In this document: positions 5,265-9,398 of the stretch, one piece after another
How the letters are laid out: each line of letters begins with the position of its first letter
Position numbering within the stretch: position 1 is the first letter of the stretch
NCBI GenBank assembly: GCA_030146905.1
Contig: JASLAV010000914.1
Span: forward strand, 1-14,295
Origin: Lentzea sp.
GTDB lineage: Bacteria; Actinomycetota; Actinomycetes; Mycobacteriales; Pseudonocardiaceae
Direction: 5' to 3'
Length of the DNA: 14,295 nt
Translations under genes and position numbers: made by a program
The notes under the pieces: model-generated
What the model saw: the letters and a program-made list of their open reading frames with translations, nothing else
Database searches by the model: none
Told to the model about the DNA's origin: nothing

Positions 5265-7589
5265 CTACTTCGTCTTGAACAGTTTCACCGTCATCGACGT
5301 GCCGCTCTGGCGAACGACCCGCAGCCCGACACCGGCAGCGGGCAGCTTCACGCCCGCGTTCGGCTGTTCCGGGTACCAGAACTGCCGGGTGTCGTCGAAC
5401 ACCGGCTGGGCCGCCGCGCCGCGGACGTAGGACGCCTTGCCGTTGACGTGCAGCGTGAAGGAGTCCGACTTCTGCAGGGAGAACGGCGCGTCGTAGCCGC
5501 TGACCGCCGGGGACCAGCGCTGGCCCTCCAGGTTGTGCAGCGGTGCCGGGTTGGCGTCGACCGGCAGGATCAGGCCCTCACCGGGGTGCTCGCTGACGTT
5601 GTTGTCGAGGAAGCTCGTGTTCCACAACGAGACGAGCAGGCGGTCCTGGTACGGGAAGTGCTCCACGAAGTCGGGCTTGTCCGGGAAGCTGTAGCGGTAC
5701 GGGCCGGTCTTGTTGTACTTGCCGTACGACTCGTAGGTGCGGTTCGACGCGATGTAGAACTGGTCGAACGTCTTCGTCTCCTTGCCCTCGGTCGTGCGGA
5801 AGCCACGCGTGGTCCACAAGCCGGTGGTCTCGGCGCCGTCGGTGAGCACGGGTGCGCCGTCGGCGGTCACGGTGATCGAGTCGGCGAAGAACCCTCCCAG
5901 CGCGAGGGCACCGTCGGTCCGGTACGCCAGGCGCAGCTTTGTGGTCTTGCCCGCGTAGGCGTCCAGGTTCACGCTCAGGTCGACCCACTGCCCGCCGGAG
6001 GACGCGCTGAGCGCGGGCGCGTCAGCCGAGTCGCGCTGGAACGGTGCGCCGTTCGCGACGCCGTCGAGCTGCGTCCAGCTGCCGTCCTCGTTGGAAGCCT
6101 CGACGTAGAGGTAGTCGTAGTCGGCCTCGATGTCGTAGCGGGCCTTCATCGTCAGCGCCGCCGTGGTCCTGCCGCGCAGGTCGAGCGGGACGGTCATGGA
6201 GTGGTCGAGGTCGTTGCCCTTCTCGCTCCACCACATCCTGGTGCCCTCGAACGGAGCGCCGTAGTCGAACGACTTGGAGATGTCGGGCAGCACCACGACG
6301 AGGCCCTGTGCCTTCGCCGAGTTGTACTCGTGCGGGCCGAGCTCGAAGACGCGTTCCTGGCCGGCCACCGCGACCTCGTAGTCGAGCCAGCCGAGCTGCA
6401 GCTTGTCCCACGCGGAGAACTCGTTGGCGCGCTCACCCGGAGCCTCGCCCTGCGCGTTCACCCGGTTCTGGGCCATGATCGACCACCAGTTGACGCCGTT
6501 CGCGCCGCCGTTGGTGTCGTAGTGGTCCGGCAGGCCGAGGTCGTGGCCGTACTCGTGCGCGAAGACGCTGACGCCGCCGTTCTCCGGCTGCACGGTGTAG
6601 TCGCCGACCCAGACGCCGGTCTCCCCGATCTGCGCGCCGCCGAGCTTGTTGGTGCCGGGGCCGGTCGAGTAGTTCTTGAACGCGTACCCCCGGTGGCTCC
6701 ACAGCGCGTCCTCGCCCTGCAGCGGATCCCCGTCGGCCTGGTCGCCACCGGCGTGCACGATCTGGAAGTGGTCGACGTAGCCGTCGGGCTCGTTGAACTC
6801 GCCGTCGGCGTCGTGGTCGTAGCGGTCCCACTGGTCGTACTCGGCCAGCGAGGCCTTGATCTCCGCGGCGGTCCTGCCCGCGGCCTGCTGGTCGGCGACC
6901 CACTGCGTGACCGCGTCCTTGATCAGCTCACGCGAGTTGTCGCAGATGTTGTCGTTGCACGGGTAGCCGTTGCTGCGGCCGTAGCGGGCCTCGTTGTAGC
7001 GGAGCTTGACCCAGTCCGAGACGGTGCCGTCGACCGTGTACCGCCCGGAGGACTGCTTGTCGTAGAAGTTCGCGACGGAGTTGGCGTCCTTCGCGCGGGA
7101 GAAGTAGAGCTCCTGGAAGTACTGGCGGCTGAAGTCGGGGCGCCAGATCGTCGTGTTGTCCTTCGCCCTGTCGGGCTCGGGGATCTGGTTGTGCACGGGC
7201 CCGTCGAACCGCTGCGGCCCCGGCGTGTTCGGGTTGGTGTCGCGGTCGGGGTAGTCGGGGTGCCGCTCGTCGCCGAACTCCGCGAGGATGACGAAGATCT
7301 TGTCGGTCTTCTCCCGCTTGAGCTCGACGTACTGGTCCTCGCCCTTCTTCTTGCCGACCTTCGCGACGGTGCTGCTGCCCCGCTTCTCGGTCCTCGTCTC
7401 GCCGGTCAGCACGTCGGCCAGGGCCTGCTGCTTGAGCGCGCGGCGCTTGACCTCCAGCTCGTGCAGTTGCTCGTCGGACTGCCGCGCTTCCGGCTTCTCG
7501 GGCTGCGCGGGCGGTGTCGCGGTGGCCGGTGCGGCCAGCCCCGCGGTGATGAGCGCGAGCACCGCTGCTCCCGCCAGAACTCTTCTCAC
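5265..7589 (-). CDS. Secreted M6-family metalloprotease (immune inhibitor A type)
   Basis: This 774-residue extracellular zinc protease starts with a Sec signal peptide (MRR, hydrophobic LAGAAVLALITAGLA, probable cut after A-T-A near residue 24). A propeptide-like charged segment follows to about 90, then the catalytic domain. The zinc site is H345-E346-Y-G-H349-D-L-G-L-P-D355, with a Met-turn at W-S-I-M372, as in M6 peptidases. An EF-hand-like DHDADG loop (258-263), followed by PDGYVDHFQIVHAG, matches the calcium-binding region conserved in InhA. C211 and C216 may form a disulfide. The C-terminal half holds a beta-sandwich region (about 415-600) and a further domain. The start is GTG, with GAGAGGGGAA six bases upstream. 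InhA-type enzymes degrade host or environmental proteins; the substrate here is unknown. The deaminase gene follows at ten bases. Confidence 0.96.
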   Translation of the reverse strand: MRRVLAGAAVLALITAGLAAPATATPPAQPEKPEARQSDEQLHELEVKRRALKQQALADVLTGETRTEKRGSSTVAKVGKKKGEDQYVELKREKTDKIFVILAEFGDERHPDYPDRDTNPNTPGPQRFDGPVHNQIPEPDRAKDNTTIWRPDFSRQYFQELYFSRAKDANSVANFYDKQSSGRYTVDGTVSDWVKLRYNEARYGRSNGYPCNDNICDNSRELIKDAVTQWVADQQAAGRTAAEIKASLAEYDQWDRYDHDADGEFNEPDGYVDHFQIVHAGGDQADGDPLQGEDALWSHRGYAFKNYSTGPGTNKLGGAQIGETGVWVGDYTVQPENGGVSVFAHEYGHDLGLPDHYDTNGGANGVNWWSIMAQNRVNAQGEAPGERANEFSAWDKLQLGWLDYEVAVAGQERVFELGPHEYNSAKAQGLVVVLPDISKSFDYGAPFEGTRMWWSEKGNDLDHSMTVPLDLRGRTTAALTMKARYDIEADYDYLYVEASNEDGSWTQLDGVANGAPFQRDSADAPALSASSGGQWVDLSVNLDAYAGKTTKLRLAYRTDGALALGGFFADSITVTADGAPVLTDGAETTGLWTTRGFRTTEGKETKTFDQFYIASNRTYESYGKYNKTGPYRYSFPDKPDFVEHFPYQDRLLVSLWNTSFLDNNVSEHPGEGLILPVDANPAPLHNLEGQRWSPAVSGYDAPFSLQKSDSFTLHVNGKASYVRGAAAQPVFDDTRQFWYPEQPNAGVKLPAAGVGLRVVRQSGTSMTVKLFKTK

Positions 7590-7620
7590 TTGTCGTTCCC
7601 CTCTCGAAATCCCGGGGCGA

Positions 7621-7632
7621 CGCTACGTAGCG
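7621..7632. promoter_or_regulatory. Perfect 12-bp palindrome upstream of the M6 protease gene
   Basis: CGCTACGTAGCG reads the same on both strands and lies 32-43 bases upstream of the protease GTG. A weak -10-like TAGCGT on the minus strand falls within it. Position and symmetry suit an operator for a dimeric repressor or activator of the protease gene. No regulator gene is nearby, so the role is inferred. Confidence 0.4.
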
Positions 7633-7660
7633 GGCCTGCGGCTCGACACGTCCGAAAGTC

Positions 7661-7674
7661 TGGTGTGAGCACCA
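7661..7674. other. Small hairpin abutting the long palindrome
   Basis: TGGTG, the tetraloop TGAG, and CACCA form a 5-bp stem-loop that ends one base before the long foldback. It may be chance in GC-rich DNA, or part of the same regulatory region. Confidence 0.3.
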
Positions 7675-7675
7675 C

Positions 7676-7834
7676 GGCGTGTCCCGTGGGTCCGTTCGAT
7701 GAGAGTCACGGTCGAGAGTTCCGGAGGCGGTACCGCCGCGACGCCCTCATACCGGGCGTATTCGGGTGTTGCGGCGGTGCCGTCTCCGGGGCCCTCGGCC
7801 GCGACTATCGCGGACGAGACCCACGGGACACGCC
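7676..7834. repeat. 159-bp near-continuous palindrome (foldback): MITE-like element or structured leader
   Basis: The two halves mirror each other about base 7755 with no gaps. The outer 17 bases match perfectly: GGCGTGTCCCGTGGGTC at 7676-7692 and its reverse complement at 7818-7834. Further in, 7721-7739 pairs with 7771-7789 (17 of 19 Watson-Crick, 2 G-T), and 7741-7752 pairs with 7758-7769 around a 5-base loop. By my count, of 77 opposed positions 59 are Watson-Crick, 8 are G-T in the + strand and 10 are mismatched. Pairing stops abruptly at both ends. There is no open reading frame I believe in it and no clear target-site duplication. It separates the divergent protease and Nramp genes, and ends 76 bases before the transporter start. 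A non-autonomous transposable element or a transcribed hairpin both fit. Confidence 0.85.
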
Positions 7835-7841
7835 CCAGCTG

Positions 7842-7898
7842 TTGACCGATTGCCCGGTACGTCGGAAAGGTGGGGATTCCGTTCCCCGCGTGTTCGTC
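7842..7898 (+). promoter_or_regulatory. Leader of the Nramp-related gene with a TTGACC box and small hairpin
   Basis: TTGACC at 7842-7847 matches a -35 element, but I find no convincing -10 at 16-18 bases. GGGGA (7872-7876) and TCCCC (7883-7887) form a 5-bp stem-loop 11 bases before the ribosome site GGGAGG (7899-7904). I see no known metal riboswitch consensus here; the call is weak. Confidence 0.25.
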
Positions 7899-7910
7899 GG
7901 GAGGTCGACA

Positions 7911-9398
7911 GTGCCGTCGATGCAGATCGGAGTGAGCAGGCCGCCGCTGGACGTGGCGGACCTGCCGGAACCGGAGGAAGTCTTCAAGGTCCGCAAGCTG
8001 GGACCGCGGCAGATCGTCCAGTTCGTCATCGGCCCGAGCCTGATCGCGCTCGGCATATCCATCGGCAGCGGCGAGTGGCTGCTCGGCCCGCAGGCGGTCG
8101 GCAGGTTCGGCTTCGTCGGCATCGGCTGGGTCATCACCGTGTCGGCGCTGCTGCAGACGTTCTACAACGTGGAGATCGCCCGCTACGTCATGGCGACGGG
8201 CGAGGCACCGGTGGTCGGCTGGGGCCGCGTGCCACCGGGCTGGAAGTTCTGGGTACCGGTCTCGCTGGCGGTCTTCTACTTCGCGTTCCTCTTCGGCGGC
8301 TGGGCGGCGGGCGCGGGGCAGGGCCTCTTCGCGCTGTTCGCGGGCCGCGGCTACCGGCCGGACGAGATCGAGTACGTGCGACTGCTCGCGATCGGCCTGC
8401 TGGTCGTGGTCTTCCTGATCACGGCGAGCGCGCGCAAGGTCTCACGCGCGCTCGAACTGGTGAACTGGGGCCTCGTCGGCACGCTGCTGCTGGTCCTGAC
8501 CGTGGTGACGCTCGCGGTAGTGCCGTTCTCCGTGTGGTGGGAGGGGGTGCGCGGCCTGGTGACCCCGGCGGCACCTCCCGCCGGCATCACGGCCACCCAG
8601 CTGGGTGGTCTGGCCGGGTTCACCGCCCTCGCGTCCGGCCTGAACTGGTACGCGATGAGCCACTACCGCGACAAGGGCTACGGCATGGGCCATCGTGTCG
8701 GGTTCATCTCCGGCATGCGTGGTGGCAAGCAGGAGCTGCGCCCGGTCGGCGTGACCTTTGTGGACAGTCCCGCCAACGCTTCCCTGTGGAAGCGGTGGTA
8801 CCGGTTGCTGTTGATCGACCAGTGGGCGGTGTTCTTCGTCGGTGCGATGCTGGGCATGTTGCTGCCCACCGTGCTGATGGCGCATCTTGTGTCGGTGTCC
8901 GGGCAGCAGCCCACCGCTGCCAACGTCCCCACGTTCACCGCTGAGCAGCTCGGCGCTTTGTACGGGCAGGGCATGTTCTACCTGATGCTGATCGTCGGGG
9001 TGTTGGTGCTGTTCTCCACCCAGCTCGGGATCTTCGAGGCCTTGGTTCGGAACTTCACCGATGCCGTGCACGCTGTTTCACCTCGGTTGCGTGCTCGGAT
9101 CGACGAGGATCCGCGGCGGTTCTACTACCCGTTCATGTTGCTGGTGCTGGTTCTCATCTCCGGGGCCCTGCATCTCGCTCTGCCCGTGGAGTTGGTGCAG
9201 ATCTCGGCGAACATGTCCAATCTTGGGGCGTTGATGTTCCCGTTCGCGCTGATGTACCTGAATTCTCGGCTGCCTCGGGCCGCCCGGCCTCGGTGGTGGC
9301 ACTATTCGATCTTGGTGTTGAACGTTGTGTTCTTCGGGTTCTTCTTCGTCAACTTCGTTTACGAGTTCGTCAGCGGAGGGCCGTTGGTTCGGTTCTGA
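7911..9398 (+). CDS. Nramp-related transporter with non-canonical ion site (GSGE type)
   Basis: This 495-residue polytopic membrane protein has the Nramp/APC layout with about 11 hydrophobic segments. The first, IGPSLIALGISIGSGEWLLGPQAVGRFGF, aligns with the Nramp TM1 that normally contains D-P-G-N. Here the four positions are G52-S-G-E55. The segment expected to be TM6 reads ASGLNWYAMSHYRDKG (about 241-256) and lacks the M-P-H motif. Members annotated as 'Nramp family' with G-S-G-E exist, to my recollection, in actinobacteria and planctomycetes, but their substrate is not established. A cytoplasmic loop of about 50 residues after TM6 is rich in Gly/Lys/Arg. The GTG at 7911 is chosen because GGGAGG lies six bases upstream; an in-frame ATG at 7920 is too far from it. 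Leu TTG codons are absent in the first 300 codons and frequent after. Confidence 0.82.
   Translation: MPSMQIGVSRPPLDVADLPEPEEVFKVRKLGPRQIVQFVIGPSLIALGISIGSGEWLLGPQAVGRFGFVGIGWVITVSALLQTFYNVEIARYVMATGEAPVVGWGRVPPGWKFWVPVSLAVFYFAFLFGGWAAGAGQGLFALFAGRGYRPDEIEYVRLLAIGLLVVVFLITASARKVSRALELVNWGLVGTLLLVLTVVTLAVVPFSVWWEGVRGLVTPAAPPAGITATQLGGLAGFTALASGLNWYAMSHYRDKGYGMGHRVGFISGMRGGKQELRPVGVTFVDSPANASLWKRWYRLLLIDQWAVFFVGAMLGMLLPTVLMAHLVSVSGQQPTAANVPTFTAEQLGALYGQGMFYLMLIVGVLVLFSTQLGIFEALVRNFTDAVHAVSPRLRARIDEDPRRFYYPFMLLVLVLISGALHLALPVELVQISANMSNLGALMFPFALMYLNSRLPRAARPRWWHYSILVLNVVFFGFFFVNFVYEFVSGGPLVRF

Follow-up and report, generated by a model that had tools for sequence, protein, structure and literature searches.

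The 159-nt foldback at positions 7676 to 7834 of the window, the 14,295-nt stretch of Lentzea sp. DNA analyzed here, is very probably a MITE. Specifically, it appears to be one old copy of an imperfect hairpin of ~160 nt that is moved by an IS5-type transposase, and in which the fold of one strand is under selection. The probability of this reading is roughly 80%. The ends of the hairpin, its target, and the empty sites in related genomes say that this is a putative MITE of the DDE type, as judged by comparison of sequences.

The arms of the foldback (7676-7752 and 7758-7834, 77 nt each) enclose a 5-nt loop and form the longest inverted repeat in the window. An earlier, sequence-only reading of this DNA described a 159-bp foldback with perfect 17-bp ends and a 5-base loop, and both an inverted-repeat search and a pair count bear this out. 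The earlier hand count of 59 Watson-Crick and 8 G-T pairs out of 77 positions is reproduced exactly; there are also 4 A-C and 6 transversion mismatches, and the outermost 17 pairs are all Watson-Crick. As RNA, the hairpin is predicted to fold at -140.7 kcal/mol, versus a mean of -75.9 for shuffled sequences (z -15.0), with none of 200 dinucleotide shuffles equaling it. The inverted repeat makes up the whole element, and no gene was recognized within these 159 nt. No Rfam family was matched at the gathering score in the window and the eight loci searched. Three sub-threshold matches were seen at E values up to 1, the best being MIR820 at 33.4 bits versus a gathering score of 196. These are taken as what any long hairpin yields, and a known RNA family was rejected as the identity of the element. 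An intrinsic terminator T run is absent 3' of the hairpin, where the sequence reads CCAGCTGTTGACC. The element, its parts, and its neighbors are as follows.

5265..7589, minus strand: neighboring gene for a secreted M6 (InhA-like) metalloprotease, outside the element; open reading frame and domain match.
7672..7675, no strand: left flank CCAC, probable relic of a copy of the CTAG target, decayed in the window; CTAG is 95 of 166 family flanks.
7676..7834, plus strand (the G-U-rich strand): likely mobile hairpin element, 159 nt; inverted repeat, fold, relatives in 23 of 24 Lentzea genomes, and alignments.
7676..7692, plus strand: left terminal inverted repeat, GGCGTGTCCCGTGGGTC; pairs with the right end at 17 Watson-Crick positions, and IS5-type elements have TGTCC equally far from CTAG.
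7744..7766, plus strand: apical core, CCCTCATACCGGGCGTATTCGGG, where the family is best conserved; alignment of 38 cores.
7818..7834, minus strand: right terminal inverted repeat; 17 Watson-Crick pairs and TGTCC spacing from CTAG, as for the left end.
7835..7838, no strand: right flank CCAG, probable relic of a copy of the CTAG target; basis as for the left flank, plus the gapless alignment of G001 once 163 nt (159 + 4) are omitted.
7911..9398, plus strand: neighboring gene for an Nramp-family transporter, outside the element; NF037982, with the GTG start placed by eye behind GGGAGG.

Relatives of the hairpin are found throughout the genus. At an E value of 0.001, the hairpin was matched in 12 of the 14 Lentzea genomes reached from transporter loci and, in a larger set, full or partial relatives are present in 23 of 24 Lentzea genomes, a few of which have weak or partial matches only. 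The best Lentzea relative is up to 96% identical over 158 of the 159 nt. There are up to 33 matches per Lentzea genome among the candidates scored, which numbered at most 35 for any genome, with some copies counted on both strands. A family survey matched 60 of 297 genomes, 37 of them outside Lentzea, where two candidates per genome were scored and many matches cover the inner part only. At the class level, 19 of 394 genomes gave matches, under strict filters, to a covariance model built on the inner 75 nt; in three of the 19 (loci L413, L423, and L424), the match is by eye unlike this element. Some of the 394 could belong to the same family as Lentzea. Plasmid and phage collections yielded no hairpin match. 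As in a MITE, then, the element is short (159 nt), lacks a transposase gene, occurs in many dispersed copies, and has terminal inverted repeats, with 17 perfect end pairs in the window and covarying ends across 58 copies.

Some copies depart from the common form. A 57-bp derivative (L148, G010:C19:546459-546523) lies between two CTAGs and keeps both ends while having lost most of the hairpin, which fits end-driven movement. A more distant Lentzea subfamily (L059, L069, L070, L071, L113) has ends like GGCCTGTATCGAAGTCC and an altered apical loop, CATACCGGTGTTGTATG. Two copies in one genome, L088 (G001:C39) and L092 (G001:C23), have 300 nt of right flank in common and unlike left flanks, which could reflect rearrangement, a longer repeated unit, or a join made in assembly.

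What is the situation at the window locus itself? The flanking genes had been read as a secreted protease and an Nramp-related transporter, and an M6 InhA-like domain and NF037982 confirm the two assignments; the transporter (7911..9398) has no Pfam match at 0.001, and its family comes from NF037982. The window transporter is 86-93% identical to counterparts in 11 Lentzea genomes. These Lentzea relatives lack the hairpin at their loci, where conservation from the transporter side reaches almost to the insertion point. For example, the site is empty in G001, which aligns gaplessly across the insertion point once 163 nt (159 + one 4-nt flank) are omitted, and in G004, which aligns with one extra base; the ~16 nt nearest the insertion point are poorly conserved, such that the empty-site call rests on length and on sequence further out. 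G020 also lacks the hairpin at this site and has a local deletion there. The sequence-only reading had listed, among other candidate roles, a MITE-like element with an unlinked transposase, to be recognized by dispersed copies and by empty sites in relatives. Both have been found (23 of 24 Lentzea genomes; G001 and G004 empty), and CTAG on both sides of copies and IS5-like ends lend further support. Because both of its CTAGs have decayed, the window copy is most likely an older insertion between divergent genes, absent from the relatives seen. The stretch from the protease to the transporter (window 5265-7911, L001-L012) is changeable in Lentzea: the protease is missing or a remnant beside the transporter in several species, and extra sequence lies between both genes in others.

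Its location could also suggest that the hairpin is a 5' leader of the Nramp transporter gene and conserved together with it. Indeed, the hairpin ends 76 nt upstream of the GTG start and has the same direction as the transporter. Such a leader is extremely unlikely, since a search with the hairpin drew a blank in all 48 loci that surround related transporters (11 from Lentzea), the hairpin is missing from G020, and copies elsewhere have unlike flanks. A conserved leader was rejected on the basis of the 48 loci. The same loci, and the Lentzea relatives that keep the transporter side without the hairpin, leave both the transporter leader hairpin and the insulator between divergent genes, each a candidate role in the sequence-only reading, unsupported at this locus; the conservation upstream of this transporter that would have favored an RNA element was not seen around related transporters. 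The window copy is probably without a role for the transporter.

The copies elsewhere reveal the target. Among 83 elements (length 140-166, end score at least 13), the flanks are CTAG in 95 of 166 cases, and the next commonest flanks, TTAG, CCAG, and CTGG, are each one change from CTAG. One site is available in both states. In G027, two convergent genes overlap in a single CTAG that forms both stop codons, with proteins ending in ...CAALGID and ...ERATETV. In G004, the same site reads CTAG-element-CTAG, and both genes keep their own TAG, with proteins ending in ...CAALGVD and ...ADKAEKV. The filled site in G004 and the single CTAG in G027 amount to a target duplication with an empty site elsewhere, as for a MITE; with a CTAG target, a 4-bp duplication (CTAG), a 2-bp duplication (TA), and CTAG as the element end are indistinguishable.

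Gene ends are strongly over-represented among the sites. Of the 79 elements with at least 250 nt on both sides, 53 have a coding-like frame whose stop codon falls precisely at one flank or both, and 16 of 79 have such a stop at each flank. At control CTAG sites in Lentzea loci, from which 147 sites beside hairpins or IS-like ends were left out, the corresponding values are 46 of 165 and 2 of 165 (Fisher p 7e-9 and 4e-7, respectively), with stop and context classes taken from an open-frame and GC3 rule rather than from annotation. Under the control's own rule of at least 300 nt on both sides, which leaves out the window and three short loci, a stop is at the flank in 44 of 55 copies and on both sides in 15 of 55. 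In G673, which has at least 12 copies, 12 of 12 closely similar scored copies lie at a stop codon; because they are closely similar, these copies are probably recent. The enrichment for stop codons may reflect a targeting preference or survivorship.

Other sites have features of their own. L064 (G006:C24) and L115 (G005:C2) have GTAA/TTAC flanks, with the right flank common to the two species, and their target seems to be GTAC-like rather than CTAG. L070 (G002:C6) and L376 (G017:C5) belong to different hairpin subfamilies and lie, in two species, at the stop of one gene (...TWQQV), whose end was apparently hit by separate insertions. In L052 and L072, both from Lentzea, and in L409, the CTAG beside the hairpin is followed by an apparent other insertion sequence (TGTATTGACC or CTGTAGTGAC), as if the hairpin borders had been reused as targets; this insertion sequence looks IS481-like.

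Which transposase could move the element? IS5-family (IS427-type) transposons are the likely movers, judging by their ends and flanks. The Lentzea IS5-family elements, which we take to be of the IS427 group, have an orfA with DUF4096 and an orfB with a DDE domain, are ~870-1025 bp long, and mostly have C-TA-G flanks. The orfA piece of L211 matches PF13340, and the orfB piece of L214 matches PF01609 and PF13586; against NF033580 (IS5 transposase), the orfB piece scores 143.2 bits and the orfA piece 109.4, just below the cut-off of 110. The ends of these elements are of the TGTCC type, e.g., GGGCCTGTCCTGTGGATCTT, GGGCGTGTCCGCCGGGTCAT, and GTGCGTGTCCTGTAAGTCAT. When 17 IS ends were compared over 18 nt with 95 hairpin ends, the best match was 14-16 for 14 of the 17, and 13, 13, and 11 for the others, the end scoring 11 being shifted by one base. 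Other CTAG-adjacent 18-mers, masked by position, gave a mean of 9.0 and a median of 9 (n = 479), with 33 at 14 or more, most of which are by eye further hairpin or IS ends. An earlier control of 546 18-mers, filtered against TGT-like starts and with some hairpin ends remaining, had a mean of 8.7. The best match between an IS end and a hairpin end is 16 of 18 within Lentzea and 17 of 18 with a hairpin outside Lentzea (L203, L383), between different genomes; some IS (L120, L181, and L150 among them) were found via a pattern that already contained TGTCC, and others via protein searches. No IS was found with ends equal to the 17-bp repeat of the window. The hairpin has ends in common with an autonomous element, as expected of a MITE, and they are similar, not identical. 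The transposase alone does not bring the hairpin, given that G024 has 34 matches to the IS transposase piece and no hairpin match at an E value of 0.001.

The imperfections of the window hairpin had been interpreted as the decay of an ancestral perfect palindrome. An alignment of 58 of 72 collected copies (length 143-163, end score at least 14, L229 left out) does not support this, since the copies have mismatches in common and many compensatory changes in the stem. Pair 19/141 is G-G in 57 of 58 copies, 42/118 is A-C in 47, 72/88 is T-C in 53 of 55 counted, and 73/87 is C-T in 51 of 54 counted. Many of the imperfections in the window are therefore not private decay, because they recur in other copies, and the decaying palindrome was rejected. 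End pairs vary as CG, GC, TA, and AT at the same pair, and the inner stem also has paired changes. In 50 Lentzea copies, hand-chosen from 73 eligible, 95.4% of cells pair, both-sided changes occur at 33 pairs versus 17.7 in shuffled alignments and 8-17 pairs in slid registers, and covariation cells number 225 versus 53 in the control. Compensatory changes thus exceed the shuffled and slid controls, as they would for a structured RNA; palindromic DNA could give the same result. Strong conservation of the apical core, CCCTCATACCGGGCGTATTCGGG, extends to genomes outside the genus; one Lentzea subfamily has a variant loop, and the stem below the core covaries (38 cores aligned, of which 19 come from outside Lentzea and the other 19 from Lentzea or the window; L394 left out).

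There is a further signal that is not expected from palindromic DNA alone: the pairing is strand-specific. In 35 disjoint pairs of close copies (70 of 77 aligned copies), single changes between Watson-Crick and G-T number 127, and those between Watson-Crick and A-C number 28; the pairs may share a few tree branches, making p values optimistic. The excess is seen for G-C pairs (70 versus 19) and A-T pairs (57 versus 9). With fold-based pairing, it is 99 versus 11 in 23 pairs, and 42 versus 9 in the 15 pairs with at least 90% identity. Outside Lentzea, G-T outnumbers A-C by 210 to 14 in 20 loci from 14 genomes; one of these copies, L377, has the opposite preference (GT 3, AC 6). At the class level, where 15 of 20 loci were used, the count is 136 versus 18 once the apical motif alone sets the orientation of each copy, and the same strand is favored in 15 of 15 copies; in the model's own orientation, these copies have GT 93 and AC 61. 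The loci left out of this set are L407 and L426 (Lentzea G001), and L413, L423, and L424, in which no CTAG-flanked hairpin was seen; the ends of L410 and L420, which were kept, are poorly set. The favored strand reads CCTCRTACYGGGCGTAYTCGG or the nearest form. At most a slight bias toward plus-strand RNA had been read from the window copy; that holds for this copy alone and fails for the family, where the bias is strong (127 versus 28).

Strand-asymmetric deamination was rejected as the source of the G-T excess, because A-T pairs shift too (57 versus 9) and paired positions have nearly as many A/G changes (76) as C/T changes (79). The few non-pairing sites have 12 C/T and 6 A/G changes, too few to explain the excess. 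Conserved pairing within a single strand is not explained by a transposase that cuts and pastes double-stranded DNA, which counts against the MITE reading. The strand-specific wobble and the conserved loop imply that one single-stranded form is under selection, at least in the lineages that yield new copies. Since G-U is a standard RNA pair, this form is probably RNA.

How might such an element spread and persist? In the reading preferred here, an IS5-type transposase supplied in trans would bind the hairpin ends, cut the element out, and join it to a CTAG. Insertion at the stop of one gene, or at the common stop of convergent genes, would be harmless because CTAG is palindromic and provides TAG on both strands, and such copies would survive. 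At some point, the favored strand would work in single-stranded form, and a hairpin of transcribed RNA is the likeliest such form. Selection would probably concern chiefly how the element itself propagates or is tolerated, rather than a regulatory task at individual sites, since the bias is independent of which neighboring gene would transcribe the element: the ratio of G-T to A-C changes is 27:5 for transcription of the plus strand, 27:3 for the minus strand, 44:14 for both, and 20:3 for neither.

A different weighting of the same observations would make the hairpin a host regulatory element (a terminator, insulator, or 3'-end stabilizer) that was spread by transposition and kept for helping upstream genes. 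Copies do lie at gene ends, often between convergent genes, and one insertion may have been maintained in place: L230 and L319 have flanks that are 86 and 91% identical and elements that are 85% identical, and 12 of their 14 pair differences keep pairing. They are probably one old insertion in two species, which suggests selection or constraint in place too. Three pairs of copies have both flanks alike, and this is the sole usable one, with L298/L330 lying in one genome and L070/L376 belonging to different subfamilies; that both flanks are common in only two or three pairs of copies itself sits poorly with a host function. A role at host 3' ends also predicts that the bias should reverse with the transcribed strand, whereas it is the same for both (27:5 and 27:3). 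In addition, the orientation of copies is not significantly biased (24 versus 13, p 0.10), and no T run follows the window hairpin. A host function is unlikely overall, if still worth serious consideration. Alternatively, templated repair or template switching inside the hairpin could maintain the match between its arms, without any selection for function. Arm-to-arm conversion could account for the 58 double changes that keep Watson-Crick pairing in the 35 close pairs, but it does not predict that copies from many places keep G-T on the same strand, nor does it predict the conserved apical core and common mismatches, and it is decidedly improbable as the explanation.

The strand-specific conservation and the fixed tetranucleotide at the foot of the hairpin would also fit single-strand HUH/Y1 elements (IS200-IS605 or REP-RAYT type), in which a Y1 enzyme would recognize the hairpin of one strand with CTAG at its foot. 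The empty CTAG versus CTAG-element-CTAG fits such a mechanism as well as it fits a duplication. A Y1 transposase as the mover is disfavored and very unlikely, because PF01797 was not found in 13 of 24 Lentzea genomes, including six of the ten with at least 12 hairpin matches (G001, G004, G010, G011, G020, and G023). Moreover, the hairpin ends resemble DDE-type IS5 ends, and both ends are conserved alike. A last idea stays with the IS5-type enzyme: the structured single-stranded hairpin, as RNA or as one DNA strand, could itself be needed for IS5-type propagation, with CTAG stops as a safe harbor. For example, a cis-acting hairpin RNA could recruit, regulate, or guide the enzyme. This is a speculative proposal with a small chance of being correct; if true, it would mean a DDE-type transposon system with a structural-RNA component.

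What are the implications of a hairpin MITE moved by IS5-type transposons? It would be a repeat family, present in several genomes of the class, that puts strong hairpins exactly at the 3' ends of actinomycete genes and leaves the genes intact; in this way, it could change where transcription ends at many genes. Ordinary MITEs are not expected to show strand-specific pairing, which is a sign of function.

In a keyword search of the literature, no hairpin family of actinomycetes with CTAG as its target was found described. Bacterial MITEs have been treated in general terms (excerpts of PMC2229807 and PMC10969869), and several known systems resemble the hairpin in part. An actinobacterial IS5-type element has been published with CTAG 4-base direct repeats (excerpt of PMC9241763), matching the target here, and the Lentzea IS have TGTCC-type ends; such IS5-family elements carry a transposase gene, whereas the hairpin is a 159-nt inverted repeat with no gene of its own recognized. 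The REP and REPIN sequences associated with RAYTs are dispersed, imperfect extragenic hairpins with a tetranucleotide at one end, according to excerpts of PMC2817692, PMC3116915, and PMC3733652. The hairpin is likewise imperfect, with a fixed tetranucleotide and many dispersed copies; however, REPs are 20-40 bp long in these excerpts, whereas the hairpin is ~160 bp with DDE-type IS5-like ends, and six of ten hairpin-rich genomes lack a Y1 match. ERIC/IRU and Correia/NEMIS elements are small repeats with TA termini and stem-loop transcripts, for which RNA-level effects on neighboring mRNA have been reported, with orientation being important for ERIC (excerpts of PMC2229807 and PMC2649163). The likeness to the hairpin is drawn here from these descriptions, and the excerpts do not mention placement at stop codons. 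The closest parallel in form is RUP of Streptococcus pneumoniae, described in an excerpt of PMC2229807 as small, non-coding, and present in many copies, with ends like those of IS630-Spn1 and insertion at TA; this 2007 text, in the part available, names RUP as the sole case with IS-like ends. RUP and the hairpin are alike in their small size, lack of coding capacity, copy number, and inverted-repeat ends that resemble those of one IS family. They differ in that the hairpin's partner is of the IS5/IS427 type, its target is CTAG, often at stop codons, and the fold of one of its strands is conserved beyond the genus.
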